The translations under genes were made by a program, and so were the position numbers. From a virus: a stretch of DNA of 33,816 nucleotides. Under the pieces are notes generated by a model, which ran no database searches, had not been told where the DNA came from, and was given only the letters and a program-made list of their open reading frames with translations. Positions 712 to 19,095 of the stretch are shown here, in pieces. Location of the stretch: positions 1 through 33,816 of the IMG/VR virus record IMGVR_UViG_3300020442_002831, one strand, 5' to 3'. Numbering within the stretch: the first letter of the stretch is position 1; every line of letters starts with the position of its first letter.

Positions 712-1110
712 GTGGTTCAAAGGATATCCAGAGCATTTAAGGATATTAGTCTATCGTTTGATAAACATCCTGTGACTAAGGATATCCTTGTACTTAAAAA
801 TGAAGATGCGATTAAAAGATCTGTCAGAAATATTGTACAGACAATACCTAGTGAAAGATTTTTTAATCCCATCTTTGGTTCGGATGTAAAAACTAATCTA
901 TTTGATTTTGTTGACTTTGGTACTGCATCGATTTTAGAAAAGCAAATCTTTGTTGCTATTGAAAACTACGAACCAAGAATTAATAATCTTGATGTTGAGG
1001 TAAATCCCAAGCCAGATCAAAATGAGTTTGAAATAACTGTGAGTTTTAATATTATCGGGCTAGAGGTTCCAGCACAAGAATTTACCTTCATCCTAGAGGC
1101 AACCAGATAA
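712..1110 (+). CDS. 25: Baseplate wedge subunit gp25
   Basis: This is the T4 gp25 / GPW family baseplate wedge protein, the tail-lysozyme-like fold without lysozyme activity that connects the wedge to the first sheath layer. At 132 aa it matches the length of T4 gp25. Family features are SERFFNPIFGSDV at residues 47-59, the LFDFVDFG region near 63-70, and the EPRI..LDVEV strand near 87-97. The gene starts with GTG at 712, not ATG. I chose this start because the N-terminal VQRISRAFKDISLSF matches cyanophage gp25 proteins, although no good Shine-Dalgarno sequence precedes it. A late promoter lies 27 bases upstream and gp6 follows after 4 bases. Gene 25 directly before gene 6 is the cyanophage arrangement; in T4 the two genes are apart. 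Confidence 0.93.
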   Translation: MVQRISRAFKDISLSFDKHPVTKDILVLKNEDAIKRSVRNIVQTIPSERFFNPIFGSDVKTNLFDFVDFGTASILEKQIFVAIENYEPRINNLDVEVNPKPDQNEFEITVSFNIIGLEVPAQEFTFILEATR

Positions 1111-1114
1111 GATA

Positions 1115-2980
1115 ATGCCTTTTACTAAGTTTACTAATCTAGATTTTGACCAGATAAAAACATCCATCAAGGATTATCTCCGTGCAAATTCAACATTCAC
1201 GGATTTTGATTTTGAGGGATCTAATTTCTCCGTCTTAATTGATACGTTAGCATATAACACATATATCACAGCATTTAACTCTAATATGGTTGTGAATGAA
1301 TCCTTCTTGGATTCTTCCACACTTAGAGAGAATGTTGTTTCTTTGGCACGTAATATTGGTTATGTTCCAAGATCGAAGAGTGCGGCAAAAGCATCAGTTT
1401 CATTTTCAATTGAATCTTCAACAACAAGTAACCAATTAATCCTTAAGGCAGGTCTTGTTTGTGTAGGTGCAGTAGATAATACACAATATACATTCTCCGT
1501 TCCTGCAGATGTAAGTGCAAACGTTGTTAATGGAGTTGCATCATTTACTGATCTGGAAGTATCTCAAGGAACATATCTAACAAAAGAGTTTGTAGTCGAT
1601 AATTCTCAAGACCAAAGATTTATTCTGAATAATCCTGGTATTGATACATCAACAATTAAGATAACCGTTGGTAGTCGTGAATATAAGCAGGTTGATAATA
1701 TTATTACTGTCAATAAAGATTCTGAAATTTATCTAATTCAGGAAGTTGCAGACGAAAGATATGAGTTATTGTTTGGTGATGGTATTATTGGTAAGAAGTT
1801 AGAAACGGGTGCCGTTATTAAAGTCAGTTATATCGTAACTGATGGTGAAGATGGAAATGGACCTGGTCTGTTCTCTTATGCAGGAACAACCACAGATAGT
1901 AATGGTTTTATTGTAAACCCAACTAATTCGGTTACAGTATCAACTACTGCCAAGTCCACAGGAGGCGGCGACATCGAGCAGATAGACTCGATCAAGTACT
2001 TTGCACCTAGAGTGTATGCATCGCAGTACAGAGCGGTTACTGCAAGGGACTATGAGGCAATTATACAACAAATCTTCCCAAGTACGGAATCTGTAGCAGT
2101 TGTTGGTGGTGAGGAGTTAGATCCCCCAGAATTTGGAAAGGTTGTGATTAGTATCAAACCAAAGAATGGTTATTCAATCTCCGACTTTGCAAAGACACAG
2201 ATTCTTAATGATCTGAAGCAATATACCGTATCTGGTGTTAAACAGGAACTTTCAGACCTCAAACTACTATTTGTTGAGGTTGATTCTGATGTGTTCTATG
2301 ATTCATCTAAGGCAAAGGATGTTCAATCAATTAGAAGCAACATTATAACTGCTTTGAATCAACATTCCAAGACTGTTGATATGAATAAGTTTGGTGGTAG
2401 GTTCAAGTATAGTAAGATTCTACAAATTATTGATAATACTGATAATTCAATTACTTCTAATATCACCAGAGTGAGAATGAGAAGAAACTTGAATGCTATT
2501 ACAAATACCTTTGCTCAATATGAGATTTGTTATGGAAATAAGTTCCATAAAAATCTAACAGGATATAATGTTAAGAGTACAGGATTTAAGATTGCTGGTG
2601 AAGTAGAAACTGTATATTTCTTGGATGTTCCTAGTGCAGAAGGTGATATTGGATTACTATCGATTGTTAAACCAACACTAGATCCTGATACTTTTGAGGT
2701 TGTAAAGAAATCAATTGGTACTGTAAATTATAAGAAGGGTGAAATTATCGTTAATACGATTAATATTATTGCTACAGACCTTCCTGATAACGTTGTTGAG
2801 ATACAAGCAATACCAGAATCAAATGATGTTATAGGATTGAAAGATCTTTATTTGATCTTTGATATGTCGAAAAGCAATATAAATATGGTTAAGGATACGA
2901 TCGCATCTGGGGAACAAATTTCTGGTGTTAATTTCCCAGTAAGATCTAGCTATTCAAATGGACAAATAACAAGGCAATAA
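1115..2980 (+). CDS. 6: Baseplate wedge protein gp6
   Basis: gp6 forms the inner ring of the baseplate wedge and belongs to the baseplate J-like superfamily. The product is 621 aa, close to T4 gp6 (about 660). The N terminus (KFTNLDFDQIKTSIKDYL, then FEGSNFSVLIDTLAYNTY) and the helix around SFLDSSTLRENVVSLARNIG (residues ~68-87) are typical of gp6. The core signature lies at residues ~295-352: an FAPRVYASQYRAVTARDYEA segment followed by VVGGEELDPPEFGKVVISIK. The C-terminal third is beta-rich. The gene starts 4 bases after gp25 and stops 9 bases before the giant gene, so the three genes are almost certainly co-transcribed. No frameshift or unusual feature is visible. Confidence 0.95.
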   Translation: MPFTKFTNLDFDQIKTSIKDYLRANSTFTDFDFEGSNFSVLIDTLAYNTYITAFNSNMVVNESFLDSSTLRENVVSLARNIGYVPRSKSAAKASVSFSIESSTTSNQLILKAGLVCVGAVDNTQYTFSVPADVSANVVNGVASFTDLEVSQGTYLTKEFVVDNSQDQRFILNNPGIDTSTIKITVGSREYKQVDNIITVNKDSEIYLIQEVADERYELLFGDGIIGKKLETGAVIKVSYIVTDGEDGNGPGLFSYAGTTTDSNGFIVNPTNSVTVSTTAKSTGGGDIEQIDSIKYFAPRVYASQYRAVTARDYEAIIQQIFPSTESVAVVGGEELDPPEFGKVVISIKPKNGYSISDFAKTQILNDLKQYTVSGVKQELSDLKLLFVEVDSDVFYDSSKAKDVQSIRSNIITALNQHSKTVDMNKFGGRFKYSKILQIIDNTDNSITSNITRVRMRRNLNAITNTFAQYEICYGNKFHKNLTGYNVKSTGFKIAGEVETVYFLDVPSAEGDIGLLSIVKPTLDPDTFEVVKKSIGTVNYKKGEIIVNTINIIATDLPDNVVEIQAIPESNDVIGLKDLYLIFDMSKSNINMVKDTIASGEQISGVNFPVRSSYSNGQITRQ

Positions 2981-2989
2981 GAGGGAGAT

Positions 2990-5900
2990 ATGATCACAAC
3001 TGGTTTTGATGCTAGGGTAAAAGTCCAACAGATTGTTGATAATCAATTACCAGAATTTATACTATCTGAAAGTCCTAAGGTAGTTGAATTTTTAAAGCAG
3101 TATTACGTCTCCCAGGAATTCCAGGGCGGCACAATTGATATTGTCGAAAATTTAGATCAGTATTTAAGTCTTAATAATTTAACACCAGACGTATTAAATG
3201 AACACACCACCACAACATCTAATGTTGCTGCTTCGGATACTACTGTAAATGTTACAACAACTAACGGATTTCCGAAGGAATATGGTCTAGTCAAAATTAA
3301 TGATGAGATTATTACTTATACTGGTATAACAACTAATAGTTTTACTGGTTGTGTTCGTGGTTTTAGTGGAATTACTTCTTATAGAGATAATTTAAATCCA
3401 GAAGAATTAGTCTTCACCTCTTCTACTGCCGCAACGCATAGTAGTGGTACACAGATTAAAAACTTAAGTGCTCTATTTTTAAAGGAATTTTATCGTAAGA
3501 TAAAGTATCTCCTTGCACCTGGATTCGAAGATGTTAGTTTTGTTAGTAATCTAGATGTAAATAACTTCATCAAGCAGATTCGTAACTTCTATCAGAGTAA
3601 AGGAACTGAAGAAGCATTTAGAATTTTGTTTGGAATTTTATATGATGAAGTACCAAAAATTATCAACCTTGAAGATTTCCTATTAAAACCATCTTTTGCA
3701 GAATTTATTAGAAGAAGAGTTCTTGTAACTGAAGTTATTAGTGGAAATCCAAATAAGTTAGTTGGTCAAATGATCAATAACTTTACAGATACTGCAACTG
3801 GTCCAGTATCTGAAGTAGAAATTATAACCAGAAATAGAAAAACCTTCTATAAGGTTCAATTATTCTCTGGATATAATGAAAAGAGTCTTATTGAAGGAAC
3901 TTTCAACATTACACCAAATAGTTTAGTATCTGATAATGTTTCTATCGGATCATCTGTTATTAGTGTTGATAGTACAATTGGTTTTGGACAAACTGGAACA
4001 GTTGTATGTAATGATGTTGAAATAGAATACACTAGCAAGAGTGTAAACCAGTTCTTTGGGTGTACTGGAATAACAAATACTATTAGTCCAAAAGATCTAG
4101 TATATTCTAAGTCAGATACAATTTATGGTTATGAAAATGGTGATTTATCTAAGCGAGTAGATCTTAGAATTACTGGCGTAATGTCAGATATTGAAAATAA
4201 AGATTCTTACGATTTATTATTTGAGGATGATTTGATTTCTGTCAAGAATCTTGGTGAAAGTATTAAAAATAATAATGATAATTATAAGCAATTTGCATTT
4301 AATACTTGGATCTATAATAATAAAACGAGATATGAAATACAGAGTTTTGCAAATAATGAATTAACACTATTTGAAACTCCAGATAAGTCTAGTCTTAAGG
4401 TTGGTGATTTTACTGATGTCTTAGATAGAAATGCTGAAAATATCGTTGTTTCTGATGCACAGGTATCTCAAATATCTGGTAATGTAGTTACATTAGATAA
4501 AAATGTTACTGTTGCATCAACCAGAGAGTTGAGTGTTAGGAAAAGATTAGATTATGCAACTTCATCAGGAGCACAGTTAGATAGTAATAGAATTCAGGCA
4601 AACGTACAAAATACATATAATGAAAAAAATGAGAGTATGTATGTTGCATCAAACTCTCTTCCAGATTATAATATAACTAAAAATATTTCTAGTTCGACGA
4701 TTACAATTGATTCATCGTCTAATTTAGATTCAATATATCAAGATTTTGTTCCTACAACTGGAAAGTTTTCCGTTTTATCTTTTGATACTGATGTCCCATT
4801 CATTACTGGTGATGAGTTAATCTATAGTGGAAGTGGAGATCCAATTGTTGGATTGGAATATGATAGAAGTTACTATGTTGAAGTTATTAGAGATACTAAT
4901 CCAGCAAGAACTAATAGAATAAAACTATATCCTGCTAGATCTTTTATTGGAACAGAGCAAACAGTACAATTCCATAAAACTAAGTTTAATACATCAACTT
5001 CACATACATTTACTCTAAAGCAACATTACGGAAAAACTCTAAAGCAGAAAAATTCATTAACAAGAATACCTTTAGTAACTAATATCCAATCGGGAACTGA
5101 TACTCCAACAGAATCTGGACAAGTTGGTGTTTTAATTAATGGTGTTGAAATTCATAATTACAAATCTGACGATAGAGTTTACTATGGTCCTTTGGATGAT
5201 ATTCAGGTTTTAAATGGTGGTGTTGATTATGATGTAATTAATCCACCACGTATTGAAATTTCTGCTCCAAAAGTTGGTACTGGGGTTTCAGCAAAGGCAC
5301 AGGCAGTTGTTAGTGGAAGCATAAAAGAGGTAAAAGTAGACCCACAAAACTTTAGTATTAATAGAGTTCTATCAACAACTATAGAAGGTGGTAATGGTAA
5401 AAATGCTCGATTGGAAGCAGTTGTTACTAGACAGTTTAGAGATATTGATTTTAATGCATCAAGAGTTGGTGTTGCTGTAACTGGTGGTATTGATATTACT
5501 AACGACACTCTTACTTTTGAAGATTTCCACAATCTTATTGATGGTCAAAAGATTGTCTATAGTTCTAATGGAAACTCTCCATTAGGTATTGGATCCTTTG
5601 ATGGTTCTAATTTAGATCAAAATGAAACACTTGTAAATGGTGGAATTTATTTCCCACAAATTATTAATACAAGATCAATTTATTTGTATAGAAGTGTAGA
5701 AGAATTTAATGCTGGTATTAATACCGTTGGATTTACAACTGTTGGTACTGGTGGTATTCATAGATTTAGAACTTATGATGAACAGACTGTAATTTCTGAA
5801 ATTAAAGTATTAAATCCTGGAGAAGGATATGAAAATAGAAAATTAAGAGTGAGACCAGTTGGTATTTCTACAATAGAAAATACAATTTCTTTTAAAAATC

Positions 5901-8900
5901 ATGGATTTAGTGATGGTGATCTAGTCGATTATAATTTTGAGACTGCTGGGATTGCTGGTCTTTCTACCTCATTGCAATATAGAATTTTAAAAATAAATGA
6001 TTCTACCTTTAGATTAGCAACCTCAGTTGGTGGTGCTAAAACTGATTTTGAAAGAAGAAACTATGTAAGTTTCGGATCTACTTCTGGTGAAGGATATCAG
6101 ATGTTCTCATATCCACCCATCAAGATTAATATTAATGCAGAGTATGGATCTGGAGTTGGTGTCGCTAATACAATTGTAGCAACTCCAGTTGTTAGAGGAT
6201 CTATTGTAGATGCGTATGTTTATGATGAAGGATCTGATTATGGATCAAATATCTTAAATTTCCATAGAAATCCTGTAGTTACTGTTAAAACTGGTTTAGG
6301 AGCTCAATTAAAAGCAATTATAAAAAGAGGTAGACTAATTGCGGTTGATGTTCAAAATGGTGGTAAATTCTTTGATGCTTCACCTGATTTGGAAGTTGTT
6401 GGTGATGGTGTAGGTGCAAGATTAAGAGCAGTAGTTGATAATCAAAGAATTGTTAGAGTCGTCATTATTAACGGTGGAACGGGATATACAGATGCAAAGA
6501 CATCTATTAAGGTAAAACCACCAGGAAGAAACGTTGTCTTAGAGTCTCATGTGAGATACTTGAGAGTCAACAACTTAAAGAGATTCTCAGATGAGTTGCT
6601 AGTAGAGTATAAGGACGATTTATCTTATGGTATTGTTGGTTATTCCACTGATCGTGAGGGAACTGCATTCTTAGATTCTTCTTCTGCAGAAGATCACTCT
6701 AAAGTTATTGGATGGGCAAATGATGGTAATCCAATCTATGGTCCATATGGATTTGATGATCCAAATGATGACAACTCTACAACTAGAAGAATTAAAACTG
6801 GTTATACCGAATCAGCATCCAATATCAAGAATAGACCATCTCTAGATGTTTTTGAACTTGGTTATTTCATTGAAGATTATGTTTTTGATGATAGTGGTGA
6901 CTTGGATATTCATAATGGAAGGTATACCAAAACTCCAGAATTTCCAAATGGAGTATATGCATACTTTGTTGGTGTGTCTACCAATGCAACCACCGGTAAA
7001 TTAGATCCAGAATTCCCTTACTTTATTGGAGATACTTACAGATCTCAAGTATCTACTGAAATTTTAGATCAAACATTTGATTTTAATAATTCTTCTCTAG
7101 TTAGAAATACATTCCCATATAGAACTGGTGAACCATATTCTGGTGGTGATTTCTTATTTGAATCTAATTCACCTGTTCAACAAATTACAAAGGTTGAGGC
7201 GACTTCTAAAGGATCAATTGACGGATTTGTAATTACAAGCGGTGGTAAAGATTATCAAGTTGGTAACGCATTAGTATATGATGTTGCTGGAACTGGTGGT
7301 GGTGGATCTGCTGCTGAGGTATCTGAGGTTGAAGGGCAAACTATTCAATCGTTAACGACACAGTATTTAAATTATCCATCTGCACTTGTAATAAGAGAAA
7401 CACCACAAACTATCCGTTTATTTACAAATTCAACTCACGAATTATTAGACGGTGATATTATACAGATTTCTGGCATATCAACCTTTATTAATAATTTGGT
7501 TGGACCTCATAATGTAGGAGTATCATCAGAATCTACTAGACTAACTGAAGTTCTTACCCAAAACACTGGTGTGGGAACTGATATATACGTTGCTTCAATA
7601 CCATCAATTATTGGTGCTGGTACATCAATTGGAATTGGAACAGAAACACTCATGGTGTTGAATGTTTTCAATGAGGAAAATATTTTACGTGTAAAACGTG
7701 GCGTAGTTGGAATATCCCATACAGTATCGGATATTGTTGATGTAAAAAATAATTCAATTACTATACCATTAGTTACTGAACATTTTGAATCTGAAAAAAA
7801 TCAATCAGTATATTTTAACCCACTTTTCAGTGCAGGTGTTGGACTACAAACCGGTACTTCAGTAGATATAGATTATCATCTAGGAAAGGCAGCAAAAACG
7901 GTTTCGGTTCCAGTACAAACTTTATTCATTCCAAACCACCCATTTAAAACAAATCAAGCGGTAGATATAAAATTACCTGGTGGTAAAAATGCCCTTCAGG
8001 TTCGTACTGAACCAGGAGATTTAAATTTTAGTATTCCAGATAACGGAATAAGTCAAACTCTTTATGTAATCAATAAAGGTAAGGACTATATTGGATTAAC
8101 AACAGAAGTTGGATTAACAACATCAACGGAGGGATTATTCTTTGTTTCTACAGATGCTGTTACAAATAATAGTTTTGAATATTCATTAAATACTAGATTT
8201 AATGAAGTAACTGCAAATGTTCAAAAGATTCAGACACTAGTATCAATTTCGACTGTTCATAATCTAAAAACTAATGATAAAATTACTCTAACAGTTGAAC
8301 CTAGGTTGTCTGTTGGTGTTGGAACTGAAGAATCCATCAATATAAAATATGATTCTGTATACAAAAAAATATTAGTTAATCCAGTTGGATTTGGATCGGA
8401 TAAAGTTGATATTGATGATAATTCAATCAACATCAATAATCACGGTTTAAAAACTGGTCAAAAAGTTTTCTATAATTCATCAAACGATATCGCAAGTGGT
8501 TTAACAACTGCTGGATACTTTGTATATCGTATTGATGATAATAACATTAGACTTTCAAAAACATTAAACGACACCACATTTGATCCACCAATAAATGTTA
8601 GTATTGCTAGTACTGGTGGTTCTGGGCAGACTATTAGTTTGTTGAATCCACAAATTGAAGTATTTAAAAATAATAATATTGTTTTTGATGTTTCTGATAC
8701 ATCTTTAGATGAATATACCTTTAAGTTCTTCTACGATAAAGAATTAAATAATGAGTTTGTTTCTACGGGAACAACCTCAACATTTAGTGTAATTGAAACA
8801 ATAGTTGATAGTGGAATATCTACATCATATACTATTACCTATAATAATGATTTACCAGAAAAACTATATTATTCATTTGAAAAAGATGGGCAATCAATTA

Positions 8901-11900
8901 AACCAGACTCTGATGTAGTTGATTTTTCTGAGATCGTTTATGTCGATAGTAAGTATAATGCTAAGTATAAAGTTTTTGGTATTGGTGCAACAACCTTTAA
9001 TATTTCACCAAGTGAAGTTCCAGAAAAATTAGATTATAATCAGAATGAGGTTGATGTTCTTAAATATACAACTGATTCTTCAACCGCTCTTGGTCCTATC
9101 TCTGAGATTAAAATTATTTCTCCAGGATCAAATTATTCACGATTACCTGTAATTACTGATGTTGTTATTGGAACAGCGAAGAGTGTTGGGGATAGTGCTA
9201 TTATTAGACCAACAACAAATACTATAGGTAAACTAAACAATTTCAGAATTGTAAATGAAGGATTTGAATACGCTGCTGATAAAACTTTAAGACCTGAAGC
9301 AAATATATCAAAACTACTAACTTTGACTGGATCTGATAAGATCGAATCAATTAGAGTTTTGGATGGTGGTAAAAATTATCTGTCAGCACCACAACTTGTT
9401 GTTGTTGATATGTTTAAGAAGGAAAAAATTGATCCTTCAAAATATATTTTAGAGGCTGATTTTGAAGGAAATACTATTGTTGGTGTTAACATCATTCAAG
9501 AACCTAGAGGTTTAGATTCTGTTGAGCATAAGATTTTCCCACTAAGAAATAGTAATGGTATTCAAGTAGAAAAAATTGTAAGTTATACGGGTGGTGTCGT
9601 TACTTTAGAAGTTAGCACTCCACCTATTGATGGATTTGCTGCTCCACCATTTGCAGAGGGAGATAGAATCTTCGTTGAAGGATTACAGCGTCAAACTGTT
9701 ACTGATGATATTGGTAATATAACTGTTCCTGGAACTGGATTCAACTCTGAAGAGAATGGATTCAATATGTTCAGAGTTACTGAGTTTATTAATTCAAACC
9801 CAGCAATACTAAGATATGATATAAGTGAGTTTACTGCAGATGCTGGAACTCCAGTAGAATTGCAAACAGCATTTACATCTGTTGTTAAGAGTACTAATCT
9901 GCCAGTATTTAAGTTAGATGTAGTTACTGGTCTATTCTTCATAGGTGAAAAACTATCCGTACTGAATGAAGAAGTTGATTTAAAAACTACAGTTGTTGAA
10001 CGTAATTTGATTAAAGTAGATGGAGATTATGATATTAAGATTGGTGATAATATTAAGGGTGTTCTTTCTGGTATTCCAGCAACAGTAGAATCCGTTAAAA
10101 ATTATGAGGGAAGATTTGAAGTTGATTATTCTAGTAGAAAAGAATTTGGTTGGAAAAATTCTGTCGGAAGATTGAATAACAGTTTACAAGTATTACCAGA
10201 TAATGATTACTATCAGAATCTTTCTTACACTATTAAGAGTGTAAAAACATTTGATGATACAAAAGATTTTGTTAATAAGCATGTTCACCCAGTAGGGATG
10301 AAGAACTTTGCTGATTTGGAATCAATAGGAAAAGCAAGTGTTGCTATTGGTGTATCTGATTCATTTGTTGCTCCTGTTATTGACCTTGTGTCAGAACTAA
10401 GAGTTGATACTATTAACTACTATGATTTAGTTCAAGATTATGAAGCAACTTCTGATAGTTCTAGATTTATAATCTTTAAGAATAAGAGACTTGCTGACTT
10501 TATTGAATGTAGAACAAATAGAGTTCTACAAATCGATGATATTAGTGGAAGATTCTCTAGTGCAGAATTTAATAAAGATAATACTGTTGAAACTATTGAG
10601 TATGCAATTACCGATTTCTATTCCAAATTCTTAATCCAGGTATCTGATGAGAATAAGTTAAGCACTCAAGTTAGTGAAGTTATTGTACTGAATGACTTTG
10701 ACAACACGTATACATTCAATAAACTTGATTTATATACAGGTGATGAAAAACTTGGTGAATTTAGGGGAGATTTTGCTGATAGTGGAGATCCAACTTTAGT
10801 ATTTGATCCAGAAAATCCAAATGATTTTAACTATAATCTAAAAGTTTACAGAGAGTCATTTACTCCTCAAGTTGGAAGTGGATTTACTGAATTTGGTGCA
10901 GTTAGAATTGATGCTAGAACTAATGCACTTGGTCCTGCTAATAATAGTGGATTGGTTGGATTTAAGACAGATGTGTTTAGAGCATTAGTAGATAAGTATG
11001 ATACTACGTACACATTTGCTCAGGTATTGAATACTGATACCAATAGAATGAACTATTTTGAAGTTGTATCGCACTTTGATGGTACAGATACACATGTAGG
11101 TGAGTTCTATTATGATACCTTACCATTACAACAGTTCTCTGGTCAAAATATTGGTACTTTTGGATTGTCTGTTTCTGGTGGAATTATTTCACTGGGATTT
11201 GAGAATGATATTGATAATAATTTACTTGTCAAAACAAAAACTGTAGGTCTTGGAACTACAGCGGCTGGTGTCGGAACTTTCCGTTATCTAGTTGATGGAC
11301 AAATTCCTGGAACTGAAAGAACTGCTAAATTTGATTCACAAGTATCAATAATTACTGGTATAACAACAGTATTCACTTTCAATACTGTTGAACAATTTAC
11401 ACAGAAATCTATTGTTAAGGTTTCTGTTGGTGATACAACTGCTATTCATAACCTTATGGTTATTGCTGATCAAACAAGAGTAAATATTCAGCAAGCACCT
11501 TTCCTCAATATTGGAACCAATTCTGGAATTGGAACATTCTCTCAAGAAATGGATGGATCTACAGCGATAGTCAAATTCCATCCAGATGCAGAATTTATTA
11601 ATGATGAAGTATCACTAGTTTCTTACAATCAACACATTTATGCTGATATTGATGAATTTAACTTCCCAGATGATTTTGAGGTTGGAACATTAGAAGAAGG
11701 AATTTCAAATTCTTTCTATGGATCAATTAATGAATTTGGAAAAGATAAGACTGATTTTGATCTTAATTATAAGAGAATTCCTATTTACGAAAAGACTTTT
11801 AATCCAGCTACATCAACACTTTTAAATAAATCTACAGGTGTTTTCTCAATTGATGACCACTTCTTTGAAACGGGTGAAGAGTTAATCTACACCCCAACAT

Positions 11901-14900
11901 CAACATTAATTGGAGTTGCGGCATCAGCAGTTGGAATTGGAACTACGGTTGTTAATGGAACATTATTTACTGGTGATATTGTAACAACAGGATTCTCTAC
12001 GGTTACTGGTATTGCAAATTCTGAGGGATTATCAACAGGTGCTCTTATATTTGGACAAGGAGTTGCTGCAAATACAACAATTGCAGGTATTTCAACATTT
12101 AATACCTACTTTGCTGGAGATGTTATTGGAGCAGGATCCAGTGTAATTACAGGTATTGCAAATACAGCAGTAATTAAAGTTGGTGCTGGAATATTCTCTG
12201 GTGATAATACTGCTCTAGGAACAGTATTTGCTGTTGGAATTAATTCCATTACTGCAACTGTTAATATAACAGGTGGTGATGATAGAGTTTATTTCACAGA
12301 TACTGCTAATTGGTCTGTGGAGATGTCTAATGTTTCTACAGGAACAACCTTCAGAGGATCTCATACAACTGGTATAACCACCGACATAATGCCTGAGAAA
12401 GTCTTTGCTATCAGACTATCAAAGGATACATTTAAGTTAACTGGAACTGCTGGTGGTAGTGGAATTGGATTCACATTTACTGATAATGGATCTGGTAATC
12501 GCCACAAGTTGGAAATGAAGAAAAAACTTGAAAAGGCGTTGATTACTATTGATGGTGTTACACAGTATCCATTAATGTATACCCCTCTGGTATTCGATTT
12601 GGAAAATAACGGTGGTGGAACTATTGGAGCTGCTGTAACATACTTATCACTTACAGGTATTTCTTCTATTAGACCTAGAGACATTCTTAGACTTGATGAT
12701 GAATACTTAGAAATTCAAAACGTTGGATTGGGAACTACAAACTCAGGACCAATTACTGGACTTGGTACTTTCCCAATTGTTAATGTTGCAAGAGGATTTG
12801 TAGGAACTGCTGCTACTGATCATCAAGATGGATCTAGCGCAAGAATTTACAAAGGTGCTTTCAATATTGTTGGTAATAAGATTCACTTTACTGAGGCACC
12901 TGATGGTAAAGGAAATAATGATAGATTGAATGCAAGTGCTCTTGCTCTACCAAAATCAACATTTAATGGTAGAGTTTATTTGAGAAATGATTATACTGGA
13001 AATAAAATTTATGATGATATTTCCTTAGGATTTAATGGAATTGGTAGAACATTCTCAATTAAACGTGAGGGTGAAAATACTTTAGGACTCGAAGCTGGAA
13101 GCAACTTAGTATTCATTAATGATATCTTCCAAACTCCTGATACAGCCAATAACGTAGGTAACAATTATAATTTTGATGCTGATGATGTTACTGGTATTTC
13201 AAGTGTAACTTTCACTGGTATTACTAGAGAAGGAACTGATGATGTAATTATTGTTGACTCTGATGTAAACCAGAACCAAATACCAAGAGGTGGTATTGTA
13301 GTTTCTCTTGCTTCTACTGGTGGACTTGGTTATGCACCATTAGTTGGTGCTGTGGTAAAACCATTTACTGATGCTAACGGAACAATAACAAGTCTTTCTG
13401 GTGTTTCAACGTTCAGTTCATCTTCCATATTGATTAGTACTTCTCGATATGATAATAAAACTGGAATTCTTAATGTCACCACCAAACAACCACATAATCT
13501 TGCAGGATCTGGATCTCAGGTTCATTTATTAGGATTAGAATTCTCTTGCCCATCTCAAGTTGTTGGACAACCAACAAATGTTACTTACGATGGTATAACT
13601 GGTATCTCTACAGTAACAATTGCAAATCATGGGTTAGTAAATGGCGATGCAGTCAAATTTGAAAGTAATTCACTTACATTTACTTGTGGGATGGATGGCA
13701 ATACTGATAATAAAACATATCCACGCCCAAATATTGATCCTATAGTTGATGAGTATTTAACAATTAGTAATGTAACTACAAACACTTTCAGAGTAAATGT
13801 AGGTTCATCACCTATTGTTAGCAATGATGTATCTGCAGCAACTTATAATCCAAACACTGGCGTTCTGACTCTCACAATTGGTGCTCATGATTTGACAGTA
13901 GGTAAGAGCATTAGACTTGTTACTGATTCATTAACATTCACATGTGCCCAAGATAGTCATGGTTCAAACCACACTTATCCAAGAGCAACAGATCCTGCAG
14001 CAAATACTGCTATTGATATTACTGATGTTGGAACTTCAACAGCAAACATTACTGACGCATCTTACAATCCAACAACAGGCGTATTAACTATCACATCTGC
14101 AAGTCATGGTTTAGCAACGAATGATAGAGTTCAGATTGCTGCTAACTCTATGATATTCACATGTGGAGCAGATAGTAATACAACCAAGCATACCTATCCT
14201 AGAGCAACTGACCCAATAAACCAAAAGTGGCAAAGGGTAACGGTAACAAATGCAAACACATTTACTATCAATATTGGTGCCTCAGGTGATACATCACTTC
14301 ATACCTTTGTTGCAGCAAGTGCAGGTGCTTTGATTAGACAAACTGGTGTAATTACGATGAACGTTGGCACTTCATCCAACACCACAGCACATACATTTGT
14401 TTCTGCTACCTCTGGTGCTGTTAGAACTGGTGGAAACTATGCACATACTTTCGTAAGTGCAACAGCAACTGCTGTTCGTACAATTAACTATACTGGTATA
14501 ACCACAACATTCTTCCCAGATGGTAAGTATGGATATGTATTCCCAGTTAATGGAGTGACTTCACTAACAGAATTTGACGTAAATGTTGGTGTTAGCACCA
14601 TACAACACTTCTATGAGAAGGGTGGTGCTATGAGACAGTATTATCCAAATCTCACTATTGGATCTGGATATAGAGGAACTGTTGGTGTTGCAATCACAGA
14701 TCTTGTTTATGATCATAAGTACTTAAGATCTTCTGCCAATTCAATTGCAGATAATTCTGTTGGATCATTCACGGCAACTGCTGCAGTTTACAATCAAACT
14801 ACTGGTAATCTAAGACTTACTATAGGTTCTCACACTTTAACAACTGATAATGTAATTACTATTGAAGATGATTCATTAACATTCACATGTGCGATGGATA

Positions 14901-17506
14901 GTAATGGTTCAAACCATACTTATCCAAGAGCAACAGATCCAGCATCTGGTGCAATACTTGATATTATCGCAACAACTGCAAACACAATTACTGTAAATGT
15001 TGGCGCATCTCAAGCAGGTCATCAATATGCACATACATTTGTAAGTGCAACTGCTAATTCTATTGTTGCTGGTGTAAGTAGAACACCTACAGCAGTTAAG
15101 TATGAACCACAAACTGGATCCTTATTACTTACTCTACCAGATCATGGATTAACCAATTCCAATACCCTACAAATTGCAACAGAATCTCTCGTATTTAAGT
15201 GTTCTAAAGATAACTTCAAGACTGAGCACTTATATCCAAGATCAACAGACCCTGCTGCAGGAATACAAACATCTGTTGTTTCTGTTTCTGGTGATATTGT
15301 TGAGGTTAATATTGGTCCTTCTGGTGGATCAGGAACTGGTGCAAATATAACAGCAACAGTTGGTGCTGGTGGAACACTTGGATTTAATATCGTTTCTGGT
15401 GGATCAAATTATGTTAATCCACTCATATCTATTGATAGTCCTTCTTATGAAAATCTGCCTATGGCAGGTGTATCTAGATTAGGTTTAGGAAATACTACCG
15501 ATGTTGGAATTGGAATGTCCATGACACTTGAAATGGGTCCATCATCTGTTGGTATTGGAACATCGTTCTTTGAAGTTGAGAGATATTTCATTACAAAACC
15601 AGGATATGCGTTCCGTAGAGGTGATGTTATCAAACCAGTTGGATTGGTAACTGCAAAAGGATTGTCTCAACCAATTGAAGAGATATTCTTTACTGTAGAT
15701 GAAGTATTTAATGATTCCTTTGCATCTTGGCAGTTAGGTGAATTTGATTATATTGATAGTAATGCATCCAGACAAGATGGTATCAGAACTAGATTCCCAT
15801 TATTTAAAAATGGTCAGTTACTAAGTTTTGAAAAGAATAATAGCGATGCAACTTCATCACTTATTGATTTTGATGCGATTCTTCTAATTTATATTAATGG
15901 TGTTATGCAAGAACCCAATGTTTCTTACGTATTTGAAGGTGGTACAACTTTCATATTCAGAGAACCACCTAAGAAAGAAGATAAAGTTGATGTATTCTTC
16001 TATAGAGGAACTCGTGGAGAGGATAGTGTTGAAATTGATGTTGATGAAACTATTAAACCAGGTGATGATCTTCAAATTTATAAGAACGATTCCCTCACAG
16101 AAACTGTGACTCAGGGTACTAGAATTGTTTCTGCAATTATCTCTGCAGATACAGTTGAAACTGGAATTTATCTCGGTGATGGTATTGATGAAACAAATGA
16201 TAAACCAGTTTTCTGGACAAAACAAAAGAGAGACCTGTTAATTAATGATAATGCACAATCAAAAGCAAGAGATTCTATTGAGGGTCAAGTTTATCCAACT
16301 GCTAAGGTAATTAAGAACTTTAACCCAACTGATGGTGAAATCTTTGTAGATGATGCACAATTCTTTAATTATGAAGAAAATAGTTCAGATATTGTTATTC
16401 AAGAAACATCTGCACTATTACTACCAGATACTGTTAGCCCTGTAGGAGCAGCATTTACCGCAATTGTTTCTATCGCAGGAACAATATCAGAGGTTAAAGT
16501 TGTTGATGGTGGAAGTGGATATGTTCCATCCTCATCTATTGCTGTTCAGATTGCACCACCTATTGGAGGAATTGGAACAGTATTTAAGGCAGATATTACT
16601 GGAAGAGTTGGAACTGTTGGTATTGGATCAACTGTTGTTACAGGTATTCTTACCACAGGTATTAGAGTTGGACATTCTGTAAATAGAGTATTTGATGGTA
16701 GTGTAGAGGTTATTGATGATACCTTCACAGTAATTGGAATCACTACATTTAATAATGGACAAGTTGAGTTGAATAAATCTGTTGGTAATTCTGCAGTTAT
16801 TACAACAGAATTTGACTTTGGTTTATATCAGGATCAAGAAAAGGCAGTTGCAACTACTGTTGTTTCTGCTGCTGGAACCATTAACTCTGTTACCTTGACT
16901 AATCCTGGTGCTGGATATACAACAACTGCAACTCCAGCATTAATTACAAAACTACCAAATACTACTAAGGAACTTATTTCGGGAATTAGATTTGTATCTG
17001 GTTATAGTGGAATTATTACTGGAATTTCAACTGCGGATGGAATTGGAGTTAGCAACGCAATTAGATTTGATTTGGAGTTCAAACAAACCGATAACATCGA
17101 ATCACTTAAGGTTGGATTCCCAATTCTGGTTTCAAATACAGGTGTTGGTCATGGAGTAACATCTATTGATGATAGTGATACTGCTGTAGTTGGTATAGGA
17201 ACAACCTTTGTTGATAATATATACTATGTACATTCCTTCACAAGATCCAATTTAACTGGTATTGTAACTGCAAATATTTTATCAACCACTAATACTGTTG
17301 GAATAGCAACCACGAGTGGATCATTAACAAATCCATGTGGAACATTCTCTTGGGGTAGACTTGCTGGATTTGAAAGAGGAACTGGAGCAATAGGTGTTGC
17401 AGTTTCTGGTTATACAGTTAATTCTGGATTATCATCATATCCAGTTCTTCAAAGAAGAGGGTTTGGACTTAGAGATAATGGATCTCTAAGAAAGGATCTT
17501 GGATAA
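2990..17506 (+). CDS. Giant mosaic baseplate wedge protein at the gp7 position (4838 aa)
   Basis: One uninterrupted frame of 4838 codons, started after GAGGGAGAT. It sits between gp6 and gp8, where T4 has gp7 (about 1030 aa), so a baseplate wedge role is inferred from position; clear gp7 homology is not visible. Order: helical N terminus (1-~65, LPEFILSESPKVVEFLKQYY), a beta 'DEIITYTG...RG' module (~73-155), a helical segment (~157-240, FIKQIRNFYQSKGTEEAFRI), then repeated beta modules. These include 'NGG.GY/NY' repeats near 740, 935, 1075-1180, 1411, 2040, 2119, 4140, 4501 and 4631; 'HGL..GD.V.Y' modules; a YHYH-like domain (1241-1350); an HPVGMKNFAD region (~2433); five FTC/TYPR repeats (~3560-4088); and an NGVMQEP fibre-like module (~4303). 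The C terminus (GTFSWGRLAGFERG, PVLQRRGFGLRDNG) is of the conserved cyanophage type, so the end appears intact. No membrane segment. Likely on the virion surface. Confidence 0.85.
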   Translation: MITTGFDARVKVQQIVDNQLPEFILSESPKVVEFLKQYYVSQEFQGGTIDIVENLDQYLSLNNLTPDVLNEHTTTTSNVAASDTTVNVTTTNGFPKEYGLVKINDEIITYTGITTNSFTGCVRGFSGITSYRDNLNPEELVFTSSTAATHSSGTQIKNLSALFLKEFYRKIKYLLAPGFEDVSFVSNLDVNNFIKQIRNFYQSKGTEEAFRILFGILYDEVPKIINLEDFLLKPSFAEFIRRRVLVTEVISGNPNKLVGQMINNFTDTATGPVSEVEIITRNRKTFYKVQLFSGYNEKSLIEGTFNITPNSLVSDNVSIGSSVISVDSTIGFGQTGTVVCNDVEIEYTSKSVNQFFGCTGITNTISPKDLVYSKSDTIYGYENGDLSKRVDLRITGVMSDIENKDSYDLLFEDDLISVKNLGESIKNNNDNYKQFAFNTWIYNNKTRYEIQSFANNELTLFETPDKSSLKVGDFTDVLDRNAENIVVSDAQVSQISGNVVTLDKNVTVASTRELSVRKRLDYATSSGAQLDSNRIQANVQNTYNEKNESMYVASNSLPDYNITKNISSSTITIDSSSNLDSIYQDFVPTTGKFSVLSFDTDVPFITGDELIYSGSGDPIVGLEYDRSYYVEVIRDTNPARTNRIKLYPARSFIGTEQTVQFHKTKFNTSTSHTFTLKQHYGKTLKQKNSLTRIPLVTNIQSGTDTPTESGQVGVLINGVEIHNYKSDDRVYYGPLDDIQVLNGGVDYDVINPPRIEISAPKVGTGVSAKAQAVVSGSIKEVKVDPQNFSINRVLSTTIEGGNGKNARLEAVVTRQFRDIDFNASRVGVAVTGGIDITNDTLTFEDFHNLIDGQKIVYSSNGNSPLGIGSFDGSNLDQNETLVNGGIYFPQIINTRSIYLYRSVEEFNAGINTVGFTTVGTGGIHRFRTYDEQTVISEIKVLNPGEGYENRKLRVRPVGISTIENTISFKNHGFSDGDLVDYNFETAGIAGLSTSLQYRILKINDSTFRLATSVGGAKTDFERRNYVSFGSTSGEGYQMFSYPPIKININAEYGSGVGVANTIVATPVVRGSIVDAYVYDEGSDYGSNILNFHRNPVVTVKTGLGAQLKAIIKRGRLIAVDVQNGGKFFDASPDLEVVGDGVGARLRAVVDNQRIVRVVIINGGTGYTDAKTSIKVKPPGRNVVLESHVRYLRVNNLKRFSDELLVEYKDDLSYGIVGYSTDREGTAFLDSSSAEDHSKVIGWANDGNPIYGPYGFDDPNDDNSTTRRIKTGYTESASNIKNRPSLDVFELGYFIEDYVFDDSGDLDIHNGRYTKTPEFPNGVYAYFVGVSTNATTGKLDPEFPYFIGDTYRSQVSTEILDQTFDFNNSSLVRNTFPYRTGEPYSGGDFLFESNSPVQQITKVEATSKGSIDGFVITSGGKDYQVGNALVYDVAGTGGGGSAAEVSEVEGQTIQSLTTQYLNYPSALVIRETPQTIRLFTNSTHELLDGDIIQISGISTFINNLVGPHNVGVSSESTRLTEVLTQNTGVGTDIYVASIPSIIGAGTSIGIGTETLMVLNVFNEENILRVKRGVVGISHTVSDIVDVKNNSITIPLVTEHFESEKNQSVYFNPLFSAGVGLQTGTSVDIDYHLGKAAKTVSVPVQTLFIPNHPFKTNQAVDIKLPGGKNALQVRTEPGDLNFSIPDNGISQTLYVINKGKDYIGLTTEVGLTTSTEGLFFVSTDAVTNNSFEYSLNTRFNEVTANVQKIQTLVSISTVHNLKTNDKITLTVEPRLSVGVGTEESINIKYDSVYKKILVNPVGFGSDKVDIDDNSININNHGLKTGQKVFYNSSNDIASGLTTAGYFVYRIDDNNIRLSKTLNDTTFDPPINVSIASTGGSGQTISLLNPQIEVFKNNNIVFDVSDTSLDEYTFKFFYDKELNNEFVSTGTTSTFSVIETIVDSGISTSYTITYNNDLPEKLYYSFEKDGQSIKPDSDVVDFSEIVYVDSKYNAKYKVFGIGATTFNISPSEVPEKLDYNQNEVDVLKYTTDSSTALGPISEIKIISPGSNYSRLPVITDVVIGTAKSVGDSAIIRPTTNTIGKLNNFRIVNEGFEYAADKTLRPEANISKLLTLTGSDKIESIRVLDGGKNYLSAPQLVVVDMFKKEKIDPSKYILEADFEGNTIVGVNIIQEPRGLDSVEHKIFPLRNSNGIQVEKIVSYTGGVVTLEVSTPPIDGFAAPPFAEGDRIFVEGLQRQTVTDDIGNITVPGTGFNSEENGFNMFRVTEFINSNPAILRYDISEFTADAGTPVELQTAFTSVVKSTNLPVFKLDVVTGLFFIGEKLSVLNEEVDLKTTVVERNLIKVDGDYDIKIGDNIKGVLSGIPATVESVKNYEGRFEVDYSSRKEFGWKNSVGRLNNSLQVLPDNDYYQNLSYTIKSVKTFDDTKDFVNKHVHPVGMKNFADLESIGKASVAIGVSDSFVAPVIDLVSELRVDTINYYDLVQDYEATSDSSRFIIFKNKRLADFIECRTNRVLQIDDISGRFSSAEFNKDNTVETIEYAITDFYSKFLIQVSDENKLSTQVSEVIVLNDFDNTYTFNKLDLYTGDEKLGEFRGDFADSGDPTLVFDPENPNDFNYNLKVYRESFTPQVGSGFTEFGAVRIDARTNALGPANNSGLVGFKTDVFRALVDKYDTTYTFAQVLNTDTNRMNYFEVVSHFDGTDTHVGEFYYDTLPLQQFSGQNIGTFGLSVSGGIISLGFENDIDNNLLVKTKTVGLGTTAAGVGTFRYLVDGQIPGTERTAKFDSQVSIITGITTVFTFNTVEQFTQKSIVKVSVGDTTAIHNLMVIADQTRVNIQQAPFLNIGTNSGIGTFSQEMDGSTAIVKFHPDAEFINDEVSLVSYNQHIYADIDEFNFPDDFEVGTLEEGISNSFYGSINEFGKDKTDFDLNYKRIPIYEKTFNPATSTLLNKSTGVFSIDDHFFETGEELIYTPTSTLIGVAASAVGIGTTVVNGTLFTGDIVTTGFSTVTGIANSEGLSTGALIFGQGVAANTTIAGISTFNTYFAGDVIGAGSSVITGIANTAVIKVGAGIFSGDNTALGTVFAVGINSITATVNITGGDDRVYFTDTANWSVEMSNVSTGTTFRGSHTTGITTDIMPEKVFAIRLSKDTFKLTGTAGGSGIGFTFTDNGSGNRHKLEMKKKLEKALITIDGVTQYPLMYTPLVFDLENNGGGTIGAAVTYLSLTGISSIRPRDILRLDDEYLEIQNVGLGTTNSGPITGLGTFPIVNVARGFVGTAATDHQDGSSARIYKGAFNIVGNKIHFTEAPDGKGNNDRLNASALALPKSTFNGRVYLRNDYTGNKIYDDISLGFNGIGRTFSIKREGENTLGLEAGSNLVFINDIFQTPDTANNVGNNYNFDADDVTGISSVTFTGITREGTDDVIIVDSDVNQNQIPRGGIVVSLASTGGLGYAPLVGAVVKPFTDANGTITSLSGVSTFSSSSILISTSRYDNKTGILNVTTKQPHNLAGSGSQVHLLGLEFSCPSQVVGQPTNVTYDGITGISTVTIANHGLVNGDAVKFESNSLTFTCGMDGNTDNKTYPRPNIDPIVDEYLTISNVTTNTFRVNVGSSPIVSNDVSAATYNPNTGVLTLTIGAHDLTVGKSIRLVTDSLTFTCAQDSHGSNHTYPRATDPAANTAIDITDVGTSTANITDASYNPTTGVLTITSASHGLATNDRVQIAANSMIFTCGADSNTTKHTYPRATDPINQKWQRVTVTNANTFTINIGASGDTSLHTFVAASAGALIRQTGVITMNVGTSSNTTAHTFVSATSGAVRTGGNYAHTFVSATATAVRTINYTGITTTFFPDGKYGYVFPVNGVTSLTEFDVNVGVSTIQHFYEKGGAMRQYYPNLTIGSGYRGTVGVAITDLVYDHKYLRSSANSIADNSVGSFTATAAVYNQTTGNLRLTIGSHTLTTDNVITIEDDSLTFTCAMDSNGSNHTYPRATDPASGAILDIIATTANTITVNVGASQAGHQYAHTFVSATANSIVAGVSRTPTAVKYEPQTGSLLLTLPDHGLTNSNTLQIATESLVFKCSKDNFKTEHLYPRSTDPAAGIQTSVVSVSGDIVEVNIGPSGGSGTGANITATVGAGGTLGFNIVSGGSNYVNPLISIDSPSYENLPMAGVSRLGLGNTTDVGIGMSMTLEMGPSSVGIGTSFFEVERYFITKPGYAFRRGDVIKPVGLVTAKGLSQPIEEIFFTVDEVFNDSFASWQLGEFDYIDSNASRQDGIRTRFPLFKNGQLLSFEKNNSDATSSLIDFDAILLIYINGVMQEPNVSYVFEGGTTFIFREPPKKEDKVDVFFYRGTRGEDSVEIDVDETIKPGDDLQIYKNDSLTETVTQGTRIVSAIISADTVETGIYLGDGIDETNDKPVFWTKQKRDLLINDNAQSKARDSIEGQVYPTAKVIKNFNPTDGEIFVDDAQFFNYEENSSDIVIQETSALLLPDTVSPVGAAFTAIVSIAGTISEVKVVDGGSGYVPSSSIAVQIAPPIGGIGTVFKADITGRVGTVGIGSTVVTGILTTGIRVGHSVNRVFDGSVEVIDDTFTVIGITTFNNGQVELNKSVGNSAVITTEFDFGLYQDQEKAVATTVVSAAGTINSVTLTNPGAGYTTTATPALITKLPNTTKELISGIRFVSGYSGIITGISTADGIGVSNAIRFDLEFKQTDNIESLKVGFPILVSNTGVGHGVTSIDDSDTAVVGIGTTFVDNIYYVHSFTRSNLTGIVTANILSTTNTVGIATTSGSLTNPCGTFSWGRLAGFERGTGAIGVAVSGYTVNSGLSSYPVLQRRGFGLRDNGSLRKDLG
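3206..3457 (+). repeat. 'DE-I-YTG / RG / H-SG' beta module, copy 1 in the giant protein
   Basis: Residues ~73-155 of the giant protein: a Thr/Val-rich lead, then VKINDEIITYTGI, CVRGFSG, and after a short insert AATHSSGTQI. This short beta module is common in phage tail proteins and recurs in this window in the DUF4815 protein and gp15. Here it splits two helical segments of the N-terminal region. Confidence 0.6.
3908..4105 (+). repeat. 'DE-I-YTG' beta module, copy 2 in the giant protein (degenerate)
   Basis: Residues ~307-372: SIGSSVISVDSTIGF, CNDVEIEYTSKS and FFGCTGI. It has the same order of elements as copy 1, but the RG and H-SG parts are weak or lost. Confidence 0.5.
6710..7039 (+). other. 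YHYH-like domain inside the giant protein
   Basis: Residues 1241-1350 match the YHYH-domain pattern in order: GWANDGNPIYGPYGF, then LDIHNGRY, then EFPNGVYAYF, then EFPYFIGDTY. The family usually reads DG.PIYGP ... LD..NGr ... P.g.YHYH ... fPY..G. Here the eponymous YHYH is YAYF, so both His are gone. The function of the domain is not established. Seeing it embedded in a baseplate protein suggests a structural or binding role, which is inference. Confidence 0.75.
12626..12861 (+). repeat. 'DE-LEI / RG-GT-A-H-G' beta module, copy 3 in the giant protein
   Basis: Residues ~3213-3290: TYLSLTGISSIRPRDILRLD, DEYLEIQNVG, then NVARGFVGTAATDHQDGSSA. This is the best-preserved copy of the module in the giant protein, with the RG, GT.A and H..G elements all present. 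Confidence 0.6.
13583..15253 (+). repeat. Five-copy FTC...TYPR.TDP repeat in the giant protein
   Basis: A module with the pattern Y.P.TG.L.LTI..H.L followed by S[LM].F.C..D.N...HTYPR.TDP occurs five times. The SL-to-DP cores lie at 13670-13741, 13928-13996, 14147-14215, 14873-14941 and 15185-15253 (four of 69 bases, the first of 72). Each core carries one Cys and a Tyr-Pro-Arg. Between copies are variable AHTFVSAT-type strands. Copies 2 and 4 are nearly identical in DNA: 13925-13995 against 14870-14940 differ at 6 of 71 positions, pointing to a recent duplication or gene conversion. The first copy is the most divergent (PRPNIDP). Confidence 0.85.
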
Positions 17507-17512
17507 TCACCT

Positions 17513-17520
17513 TATAAATA
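17513..17520 (+). promoter_or_regulatory. T4-type late promoter upstream of gene 8
   Basis: Exact TATAAATA in the 32-base gap between the giant gene and gp8, 18 bases before the gp8 ATG and followed by an A-rich tract. It would drive gp8, the 2367-aa gene and the two small genes after it. Confidence 0.8.
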
Positions 17521-17538: not shown

Positions 17539-19095
17539 ATGTCTGCGATTGTCACAGATCAATTTAGAATTTTAAACGCTTCTAACTTTGTGGATTCTGT
17601 CAGTAATCCTGATAATTCTTTTTATGTCTTTTTGAGTTTGGTAAATCCGTCCTCAGTTGGATTTGGAAGATCAACCACTTGGGATACTAATACACCAACA
17701 CCAGTTGATAATTTTAGTTATCTAAGTCATGTGAAAGACACCATGATTTTTGGTAAAAGGATTACCATTAATGATGTAAGAAGATTAGTTAGAAGAGTTG
17801 ATTGGAAACAAGGTACTGTATATGAAATGTACAGGCATGATTATAGTATCACAAATCCATCACCACAAACAAATTCTACAAGATTGTATGATGCAAATTA
17901 CTATGTAATGAATAGTGATTTCAGAGTATATGTTTGTATTGATAATGGATCATCTGGGGCAAATCCTACTGGAAACTTTTCACAAGACGAACCTTCATTT
18001 GTTGATTTGGAACCATCCAGAGCGGGTGAGAGTGGAGATGGTTATATTTGGAAATATCTATTTACCGTATCACCAAGTGATATTATTAAATTTGACTCTA
18101 TTGAATATATTCCAATTCCAAATGATTGGGACACAACTACAGAGGCTCAGATTGTATCTGTAAGAGATAATGGAGATTCTAATATTAATGAAAACCAGAT
18201 TAAAAAGATTTACGTAGAAAATCAAGGTTCTGGATATAATACAACCGATGCAGAGTTGGATATTCTTGGTGATGGTGTTGGTGGAAAAGCAGTTGTAAAC
18301 GTTGTTGGTGGTAAAATTGAATCCGCAACTGTTTCTGCAGGAGGAAGTGGATATTCTTACGGAAGAGTTGATCTTTCAACAATTAATTCTGGATCCACGG
18401 GATTTGCACACTTAATTCCAATTATTCCTCCATCTAGAGGACATGGATTTGACATCTATAATGAGTTGGGAACTGATAGAGTTTTGATTTATGCAAGATT
18501 TGATTCTTCAACGAAAGATTTCCCATTAGATACTAGATTCTCTCAAATTGGTATTTTGAAGAATCCAACCAGAGTTGGATCCGCATCTTCTGTATTCCAA
18601 GAGAGCCAATTCTCAAATCTTGGTGGATTTAAATTGGCATCTGTATCAAACCCTGAGGATGCTGCTCCAGGTAATAGAATTTTCCAATCTGTTACTGGAG
18701 TTGGTACAGCAACTGGATACATGGCTTCATATGATGAAGAAACTAAAGTGTTGAAATATTTCCAAGATAGATCACTTTATTTCAATACTGGATCATATGA
18801 CCAGAAAGATTCAAAAACTATTGTATCTGAAGCAAAGAATGTTTCTTTTGTGAAAGATGGTGGAACTATCACTTCAGTCAATAGTTTTAGTGGAACTATA
18901 GATCAGAATTTTACTGGAATTACCACTTCAATAACATCCACTAAAAATGTTAATTTGGCAACCCAATTCACAAATGGCATCTCTCTACCAGAGATAAATA
19001 AAGGATCGGGGCAAATTATTTACATTGATAATAGACCTCGCGTCTCAAGAAACCAAAGACAAAAAGAAGATATTAAAATCATACTGGAATTCTAA
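17539..19095 (+). CDS. 8: Baseplate wedge protein gp8
   Basis: gp8 is a wedge subunit that, in T4, sits as a dimer on the gp6-gp7 wedge arms. The product is 518 aa against 334 in T4, a size normal for the cyanophage version. Family features lie in the N-terminal 110 residues: DQFRILNASNF, then FGKRITINDVRRLVRRVDW (from ~71), then GTVYEMYRHDY. Around residue 160-175 is GDGYIWKYLFTVSPSDIIKF, also typical. Residues 221-288 hold two 'GSGY' repeats of the kind found in gp14 and the giant protein (ENQGSGYNTTDAELDI and SAGGSGYSYGRVDL), which accounts for part of the extra length. The stop at 19093-19095 is 2 bases before the next ATG, implying translational coupling. The nearest ribosome binding site is weak. 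Confidence 0.9.
   Translation: MSAIVTDQFRILNASNFVDSVSNPDNSFYVFLSLVNPSSVGFGRSTTWDTNTPTPVDNFSYLSHVKDTMIFGKRITINDVRRLVRRVDWKQGTVYEMYRHDYSITNPSPQTNSTRLYDANYYVMNSDFRVYVCIDNGSSGANPTGNFSQDEPSFVDLEPSRAGESGDGYIWKYLFTVSPSDIIKFDSIEYIPIPNDWDTTTEAQIVSVRDNGDSNINENQIKKIYVENQGSGYNTTDAELDILGDGVGGKAVVNVVGGKIESATVSAGGSGYSYGRVDLSTINSGSTGFAHLIPIIPPSRGHGFDIYNELGTDRVLIYARFDSSTKDFPLDTRFSQIGILKNPTRVGSASSVFQESQFSNLGGFKLASVSNPEDAAPGNRIFQSVTGVGTATGYMASYDEETKVLKYFQDRSLYFNTGSYDQKDSKTIVSEAKNVSFVKDGGTITSVNSFSGTIDQNFTGITTSITSTKNVNLATQFTNGISLPEINKGSGQIIYIDNRPRVSRNQRQKEDIKIILEF
18199..18405 (+). repeat. Two GSGY repeats in gp8
   Basis: Two copies of the pattern 'I..I.V...GSGY......L.I.G.G.GG.A...V..G.' encode residues ~221-288. 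They match the repeat expanded in gp14 and scattered through the giant protein. Confidence 0.65.

Follow-up and report, generated by a model that had tools for sequence, protein, structure and literature searches.

A giant protein at the gp7 position of an uncultured cyanophage-like virus probably pairs a T4-type wedge core with a long beta-rich extension

The window analysed here, which is the whole of a 33816-base IMG/VR virus record and probably only part of a larger genome, carries a giant gene that, with good confidence, encodes the gp7 wedge subunit of a cyanophage-like T4-type myovirus, made up of an N-terminal core and a beta-rich extension. A first-pass annotation had presented this protein as exceptional in size, an idea we had to abandon given the proteins of P-SSM4 (7312 aa), Syn19 (6483 aa) and P-SSM2 (5195 aa); it is an ordinary new member of an already known family of giant gp7s of marine cyanophages. 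The gene and its surroundings are as follows.

712..1110, + strand: gp25 sheath initiator (PF04965, phrog_261)
1115..2980, + strand: gp6 baseplate wedge protein (phrog_219, E=3e-200)
2981..2987, + strand: Shine-Dalgarno-like purine-rich GAGGGAG directly after the gp6 stop, read from the sequence
2990..17506, + strand: giant gp7, cyanophage-type baseplate wedge protein of 4838 aa (phrog_2885; ORF and profile match)
2990..3862, + strand: gp7 wedge core, residues 1-291, with helices at 6-59 and 159-218 and a small beta-module at 69-126 interrupting them (hhalign, AF2/Foldseek)
3563..3664, + strand: FY-x-SKG-T/S-x-x-(A/S)F motif, residues 192-225, aligned to T4 gp7 726-759
17513..17520, + strand: late-promoter-like TATAAATA in the gp7-gp8 spacer
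17539..19095, + strand: gp8 baseplate wedge protein (phrog_438, E=8e-156; PF09215)
19098..26201, + strand: VrlC/DUF4815 structural protein of 2367 aa, by its profile matches not a gp7 homologue

The frame itself, together with the profile matches of gp6 and gp8, bears out the earlier description of a single intact frame lying between these two genes, in the order gp25-gp6-gp7-gp8. It opens with ATG 9 nt after gp6, closes 32 nt before gp8, and runs for 4838 codons in one frame with zero N and zero internal stops, giving a protein with a computed mass of 523 kDa and pI of 4.8. At the base composition of the window, the chance of an open frame of this length is about 10^-171, and the GC content by codon position is coding-like over the whole length. 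Two figures given at first pass also stood: the share of the window taken up by the giant protein and the 2367-aa protein (about 64%, computed as 63.9%), and the length of T4 gp7 (about 1030 aa; 1032 aa). The sheath family PF04984 had no match in the window, itself a fragment, and the truncated first ORF (window 2-319) has its match in the C-terminal portion of phrog_3704, a family labelled ‘ferredoxin’; in S-SKS1, a gene annotated as ferredoxin occupies the equivalent place before gp25. As for expression, ATAAATA is the cyanophage late-promoter motif (PMC2984593). Such motifs are no more frequent in the window than expected by chance, so the weight of the one behind gp7 rests on its conserved position, ATAAATA being present in the spacer of 16/16 relatives inspected. 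A promoter in the spacer would let gp8 be transcribed without read-through of the 14.5-kb gene.

To the gene position from which gp7 had initially been named, homology can now be added from three sides: profile-profile comparison, a shared protein family and a structure search. When a profile of 39 N-terminal sequences was compared by hhalign with seven T4-type gp7s, window residues 192-291 aligned with residues 726-813 of T4 gp7 (P=91, E=9e-7, score 63.7), and the core profile also matched the single T4 gp7 sequence (E=4e-5). In controls, T4 gp5, gp6, gp8, gp9, gp10, gp11, gp12, gp53 and wac all gave E of at least 0.08 against the core profile, while the reversed profile scored 21.8 and 30 column shuffles scored at most 26.8, against the 63.7 of the real comparison. 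Among PHROGs, the window protein matches phrog_2885, ‘baseplate wedge subunit’, with 3550 bits and a best stretch of residues 3-2996; its surroundings show the order that goes with membership, gp25-gp6-X-gp8 with X a single frame of several kilobases, and T4 gp7 itself matches phrog_2885 via the core motif also seen in the profile comparison (E=1.3e-4, T4 730-758 to profile 196-224). An AF2 model of residues 1-575 had a mean pLDDT of 67.7 (helical core 40-60), and the sole PDB match with E<1e-3 in a Foldseek search with this model was a chain of the T4 baseplate, 5iv5_BJ, with low TM-scores. The length of this chain fits gp7, which is included in entry 5iv5; 5hx2_A, a gp7 structure, came at rank 7, and the BFVD matches include T4-type wedge initiators. 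A sequence search of the N-terminus against the PDB returned nothing relevant. Pfam placed YHYH alone above cut-off in the giant protein; the helical PF21428, Gp7_5th and Gp7_6th all had no match in it, and PF21428 was found in 0/11 cyanophage genomes. Since these T4-type domains were not found, only the core appears to be shared, so that the comparison with T4 gp7 holds for residues 192-291 and does not extend to the other T4 gp7 Pfam domains. On these sequence comparisons we take the homology of the gp7 core as established, with the fold match in a supporting role.

The length of the ORF was then compared between relatives, which revealed giant frames at the gp7 position throughout the isolates, spanning 3515-7312 aa. 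Single frames lie directly after gp6 in P-SSM2 (5195 aa, annotated gp7), S-T4 (4749), Sf-CH5 (4878), S-SRM01 (3895), S-CAM7 (4314), ACG-2014f (4225), Bellamy (4067), S-RSM4 (3515), P-HM2 (4454), Syn19 (6483) and P-SSM4 (7312), and separate records from metagenomes likewise hold orthologues in a single frame (nearest 4321-4527 aa, distant 2819-3714 aa). Residues 1-500 of gp7 are matched by 462 phage records, of which 457 are from named cyanophages, the remaining five being records of uncultured marine viruses. Giant gp7s are in this sense normal for marine T4-like cyanophages; in several isolates the protein is annotated merely as ‘virion structural protein’, and among the papers searched none dealt with giant gp7 or a cyanomyovirus baseplate structure. 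In the record of S-SKS1 (L048 20001-32384), the gp7 region lies in several frames, with pieces of 4803, 3339 and 2217 bases, unlike its relatives; these splits may be sequencing or frame errors, or real breaks.

A 16-member alignment and comparisons of the chain with itself divide the protein into a conserved body, diverged modules and optional blocks.

2990..11989, + strand: collinear conserved body, residues 1-3000 (16-member alignment)
5177..5431, + strand: GGxGY-type beta-module, residues 730-814 (self-hhalign)
6662..6991, + strand: YHYH domain PF14240, profile positions 81-187 only, residues 1225-1334 (E=1e-23)
10634..11638, + strand: three diverged tandem units of ~130 aa, residues 2549-2883 (hhalign P 93.6-94.2)
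11990..12289, + strand: optional insertion, residues 3001-3100, occupancy 0.5 (alignment)
13400..15301, + strand: optional block of ~75-aa TYPRATDP-type repeats, residues 3471-4104 (alignment, self-comparison)
15302..17503, + strand: mostly conserved C-terminal part, residues 4105-4838, optional at ~4500-4600 (alignment)

Between residues 1 and 2500 the occupancy is 0.92-1.0; it drops to 0.78-0.87 at 2500-3000 and to 0.5 at 3001-3100, is high at 3101-3500 and 4101-4500, falls to 0.06-0.5 at 3501-4100 and is 0.54 at 4501-4600. The C-terminal part has 286 relatives in IMG/VR. The ~635 residues of the window at 3470-4104 correspond to 16 in S-SRM01, and another relative is without residues 3572-4103. 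In total ~760 residues are optional, chiefly those at 3470-4104, and the other ~4000 are collinear in relatives down to ~30% identity. Internal repeats escaped BLAST of the whole protein against itself and were revealed by chunked BLAST and by profile self-comparison, with units of ~70-90 aa at 585-681, 833-1040, 1604-1673 and 1771-1893. By profile self-comparison, GGxGY units lie at 730-814, 1067-1190, 2035-2195, 4106-4148 and 4485-4537, and units of another family at 69-121 and 307-358. Self-similar segments make up between 37% (hhalign P>=95) and 55% (P>80) of the chain; none of 1600 reversed pairs exceeded P=21. A chain consisting mostly of repeated beta modules, as proposed at first pass, is borne out for this 37-55%, while the majority of the chain is collinear in relatives; likewise, growth by accretion fits the stretches at ~3000-3100, 3470-4104 and ~4500-4600, as against the other ~4000 collinear residues. 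Recent duplication of the repeats was considered and rejected, the copies being just ~64-89% alike at the DNA level. The ~75-aa module recurs outside gp7, for example in large ORFs of S-CAM7 (4172 aa), ACG-2014f (3973 aa) and P-HM2 (3682 aa), isolates that also have giant gp7s, which suggests that it is exchanged between giant proteins. Elsewhere in the window, gp14 (head closure, 29555-31192) has C-terminal beta-modules related to gp7 2035-2140 and 4106-4148, and gp15 has weak matches to fibre-type profiles. The resulting map of ~4000 conserved and ~760 optional residues provides targets for structural and proteomic work on isolates.

The YHYH domain accompanies the family closely. PF14240 matched in 32/32 aligned relatives and lies in the gp7 frame of 11/11 cyanophage genomes, but not in T4; in distant isolates BLAST still aligns two segments, the core and the one that bears YHYH. 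On the strength of three histidines and one aspartate, a review predicts YHYH proteins to be Zn-dependent hydrolases (PMC7824862). Here most of the opening part of the profile finds no counterpart, and no YHYH motif was seen in the window copy or the aligned gp7s, in which the His of HSxxIGWA is nearly invariant and that of HNGR is variable and often replaced. The YHYH segment gave nothing relevant in a sequence search of the PDB, and an AF2 model of residues 1055-1505 (pLDDT 64.5) led to no matching PDB fold for the domain. We lean towards a structural or binding role for the YHYH domain of gp7, judging by sequence.

Isolate proteomics place proteins of the gp7 position in virions, as the first-pass reading of a wedge protein supposed. 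ORF122 of S-CREM2 (77594-83407), which is gp7 by position and by its authors' label, yielded 91 unique peptides at 27.2% coverage, and an S-SM1 protein of cluster T4-GC969, to which the 6483-aa protein of Syn19 is assigned, was found in virions. The S-CREM2 ORF at the VrlC position yielded 450 peptides at 46% coverage; the VrlC/DUF4815 protein was found in 11/11 cyanophage genomes tested.

A 2020 paper (PMC7029224) states that in cyano- and pelagimyophages gp7 is absent, with VrlC in its place, in which case the giant chain would be an unrelated structural or receptor-binding protein and VrlC would have taken over the role of gp7. The lack of detectable T4-type gp7 Pfam domains and the noncommittal annotation of several isolates sit well with that published statement. 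Against it stand the specific N-terminal match to T4 gp7 with its clean controls, the match of T4 gp7 itself to phrog_2885 and the structure search that led to the T4 baseplate; moreover, segments of VrlC gave E of at least 0.36 against the T4 gp7 family, which is no match, although such a single-sequence query is weak alone. We regard the absence of gp7 as quite improbable, and the assignment of the N-terminal ~290 residues to the gp7 core, made from sequence, contradicts the published statement. It offers testable evidence that marine T4-like cyanophages keep gp7.

Even if the protein is gp7, its length might be reached or used in other ways. Six copies would amount to 3.1 MDa, as opposed to 0.7 MDa in T4, and optional repeat blocks could act as linkers, both of which would suit a 4838-aa precursor that is cut into a wedge core and at least one separate peripheral protein. 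Processing of this kind, part of the first-pass proposal, found no evidence in its favour: the frame is single in all intact orthologues examined, also in those without the repeat block, the only apparent splits are those in the S-SKS1 record, which are maybe frame errors, and neither a protease nor a conserved cleavage site was identified. We therefore think cleavage unlikely; it is neither needed nor supported. An apparent length exaggerated by misassembly of the repeats has in its favour that residues of the repeat block (3470-4104) are more numerous in the window than in its nearest relatives (4838 vs 4321-4527 aa), and this block is the sole stretch whose length short-read assembly could affect. 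The repeat copies differ from one another, however, with Tandem Repeats Finder reporting no array; the isolates P-SSM4 and P-SSM2 carry more repeats than the window, and both flanks of the block share one frame. We consider such inflation very unlikely. Because single-frame orthologues occur both in separate IMG/VR records (4321-4527 aa) and in isolates of equal gene order (3515-5195 aa), an assembly join inside the ORF is also unlikely, in keeping with the uninterrupted frame reported at first pass.

Returning to an uncleaved gp7, what might so long a chain do? T4 gp7 is a monomer, present in six copies per baseplate, that is located in the wedge and also in the pins with gp10 and gp11 (PMC3004832). 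At the level of Pfam HMMs, where divergence could explain a miss, the gp11 family and the gp10 C-terminal domain were each found in 0/11 cyanophage genomes, with T4 positive for both; the gp9/10 N-terminal domain was found in two of the 11, Syn19 and P-SSM4, and in T4. As gp10-C and gp11 escape detection, their functions may fall to the extension, and the simplest reading is that it forms the baseplate periphery together with VrlC. The N-terminal ~290 residues would pair with the gp6 dimer and dock on gp25 as in T4, to give six wedges with six copies of gp7 per baseplate. The remaining ~4500 residues would form a string of mostly beta-rich domains, in part diverged versions of three or four kinds of module. 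This string most likely surrounds and underlies the wedge as the outer baseplate, and could do what in T4 falls to gp10, to gp11 and to the N-terminal two thirds of gp7. Projection of the protein from the surface, as the first-pass annotation envisaged, is plausible, and the ~75-aa repeat block at 3470-4104 is probably a surface-exposed spacer or binding arm, perhaps in contact with the host. More tentatively, and short of an even chance in our view, cyanomyoviruses may have transferred a large share of what forms the baseplate periphery in T4 (the gp10/gp11 tail pins, perhaps also short-fibre attachment) into a single-chain gp7 with its core at the N-terminus, in which host contact is tuned by exchangeable repeat arms that also occur in other giant proteins of these genomes. 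If the extension does replace gp10 and gp11, these baseplates would be built quite unlike that of T4. The structure models behind this picture cover residues 1-575 and 1055-1505 of 4838, the latter at low confidence. What the analysis contributes is the evidence for the gp7 core, the map of conserved and optional parts, and the question of whether the giant chain replaces the T4 tail pins.

Compared with known systems, the window gp7 lies between gp6 and gp8, as does T4 gp7 (phrog_964, 1032 aa, PDB 5hx2/5iv5), which lacks the ~4500-aa extension. In T4 gp7 the core lies in the C-terminal part, whereas here it is N-terminal, which puts the extension on the opposite side. At the other extreme, the minimal gp7 orthologues, Vibrio phage XM1 gp17 (242 aa) and R2 pyocin PA0619 (PMC10457771), are core-sized partners of the gp6 dimer without a giant extension, likened to the window protein here by description; the 242-residue orthologue suffices for phage XM1 (PMC10457771), and such wedge partners show that a core alone is enough. 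The T4-GC969 proteins of cluster-B cyanophages (Syn19, 6483 aa; S-SM1) and P-SSM4 gp7 follow gp6, as in the window, and share the core motif, the YHYH domain and repeat modules with it, but their core is interrupted by an insertion of ~500 aa. The stretches of Syn19 and P-SSM4 that were examined showed no gp8, and in Syn19, unlike the window, it is not directly downstream, gp9 being the gene after giant gp7. The other giant gp7s of cyanomyoviruses (phrog_2885; P-SSM2, S-T4, Sf-CH5, S-SRM01), a type known from isolates whereas the window is an uncultured fragment, differ from the window protein in length and in the number of ~75-aa repeats at 3470-4104. They have the same gene order, share the YHYH domain and the ATAAATA of the gp7-gp8 spacer, and at ~30-54% identity are collinear with it through residues 1-~3000 and again at the C-terminus.
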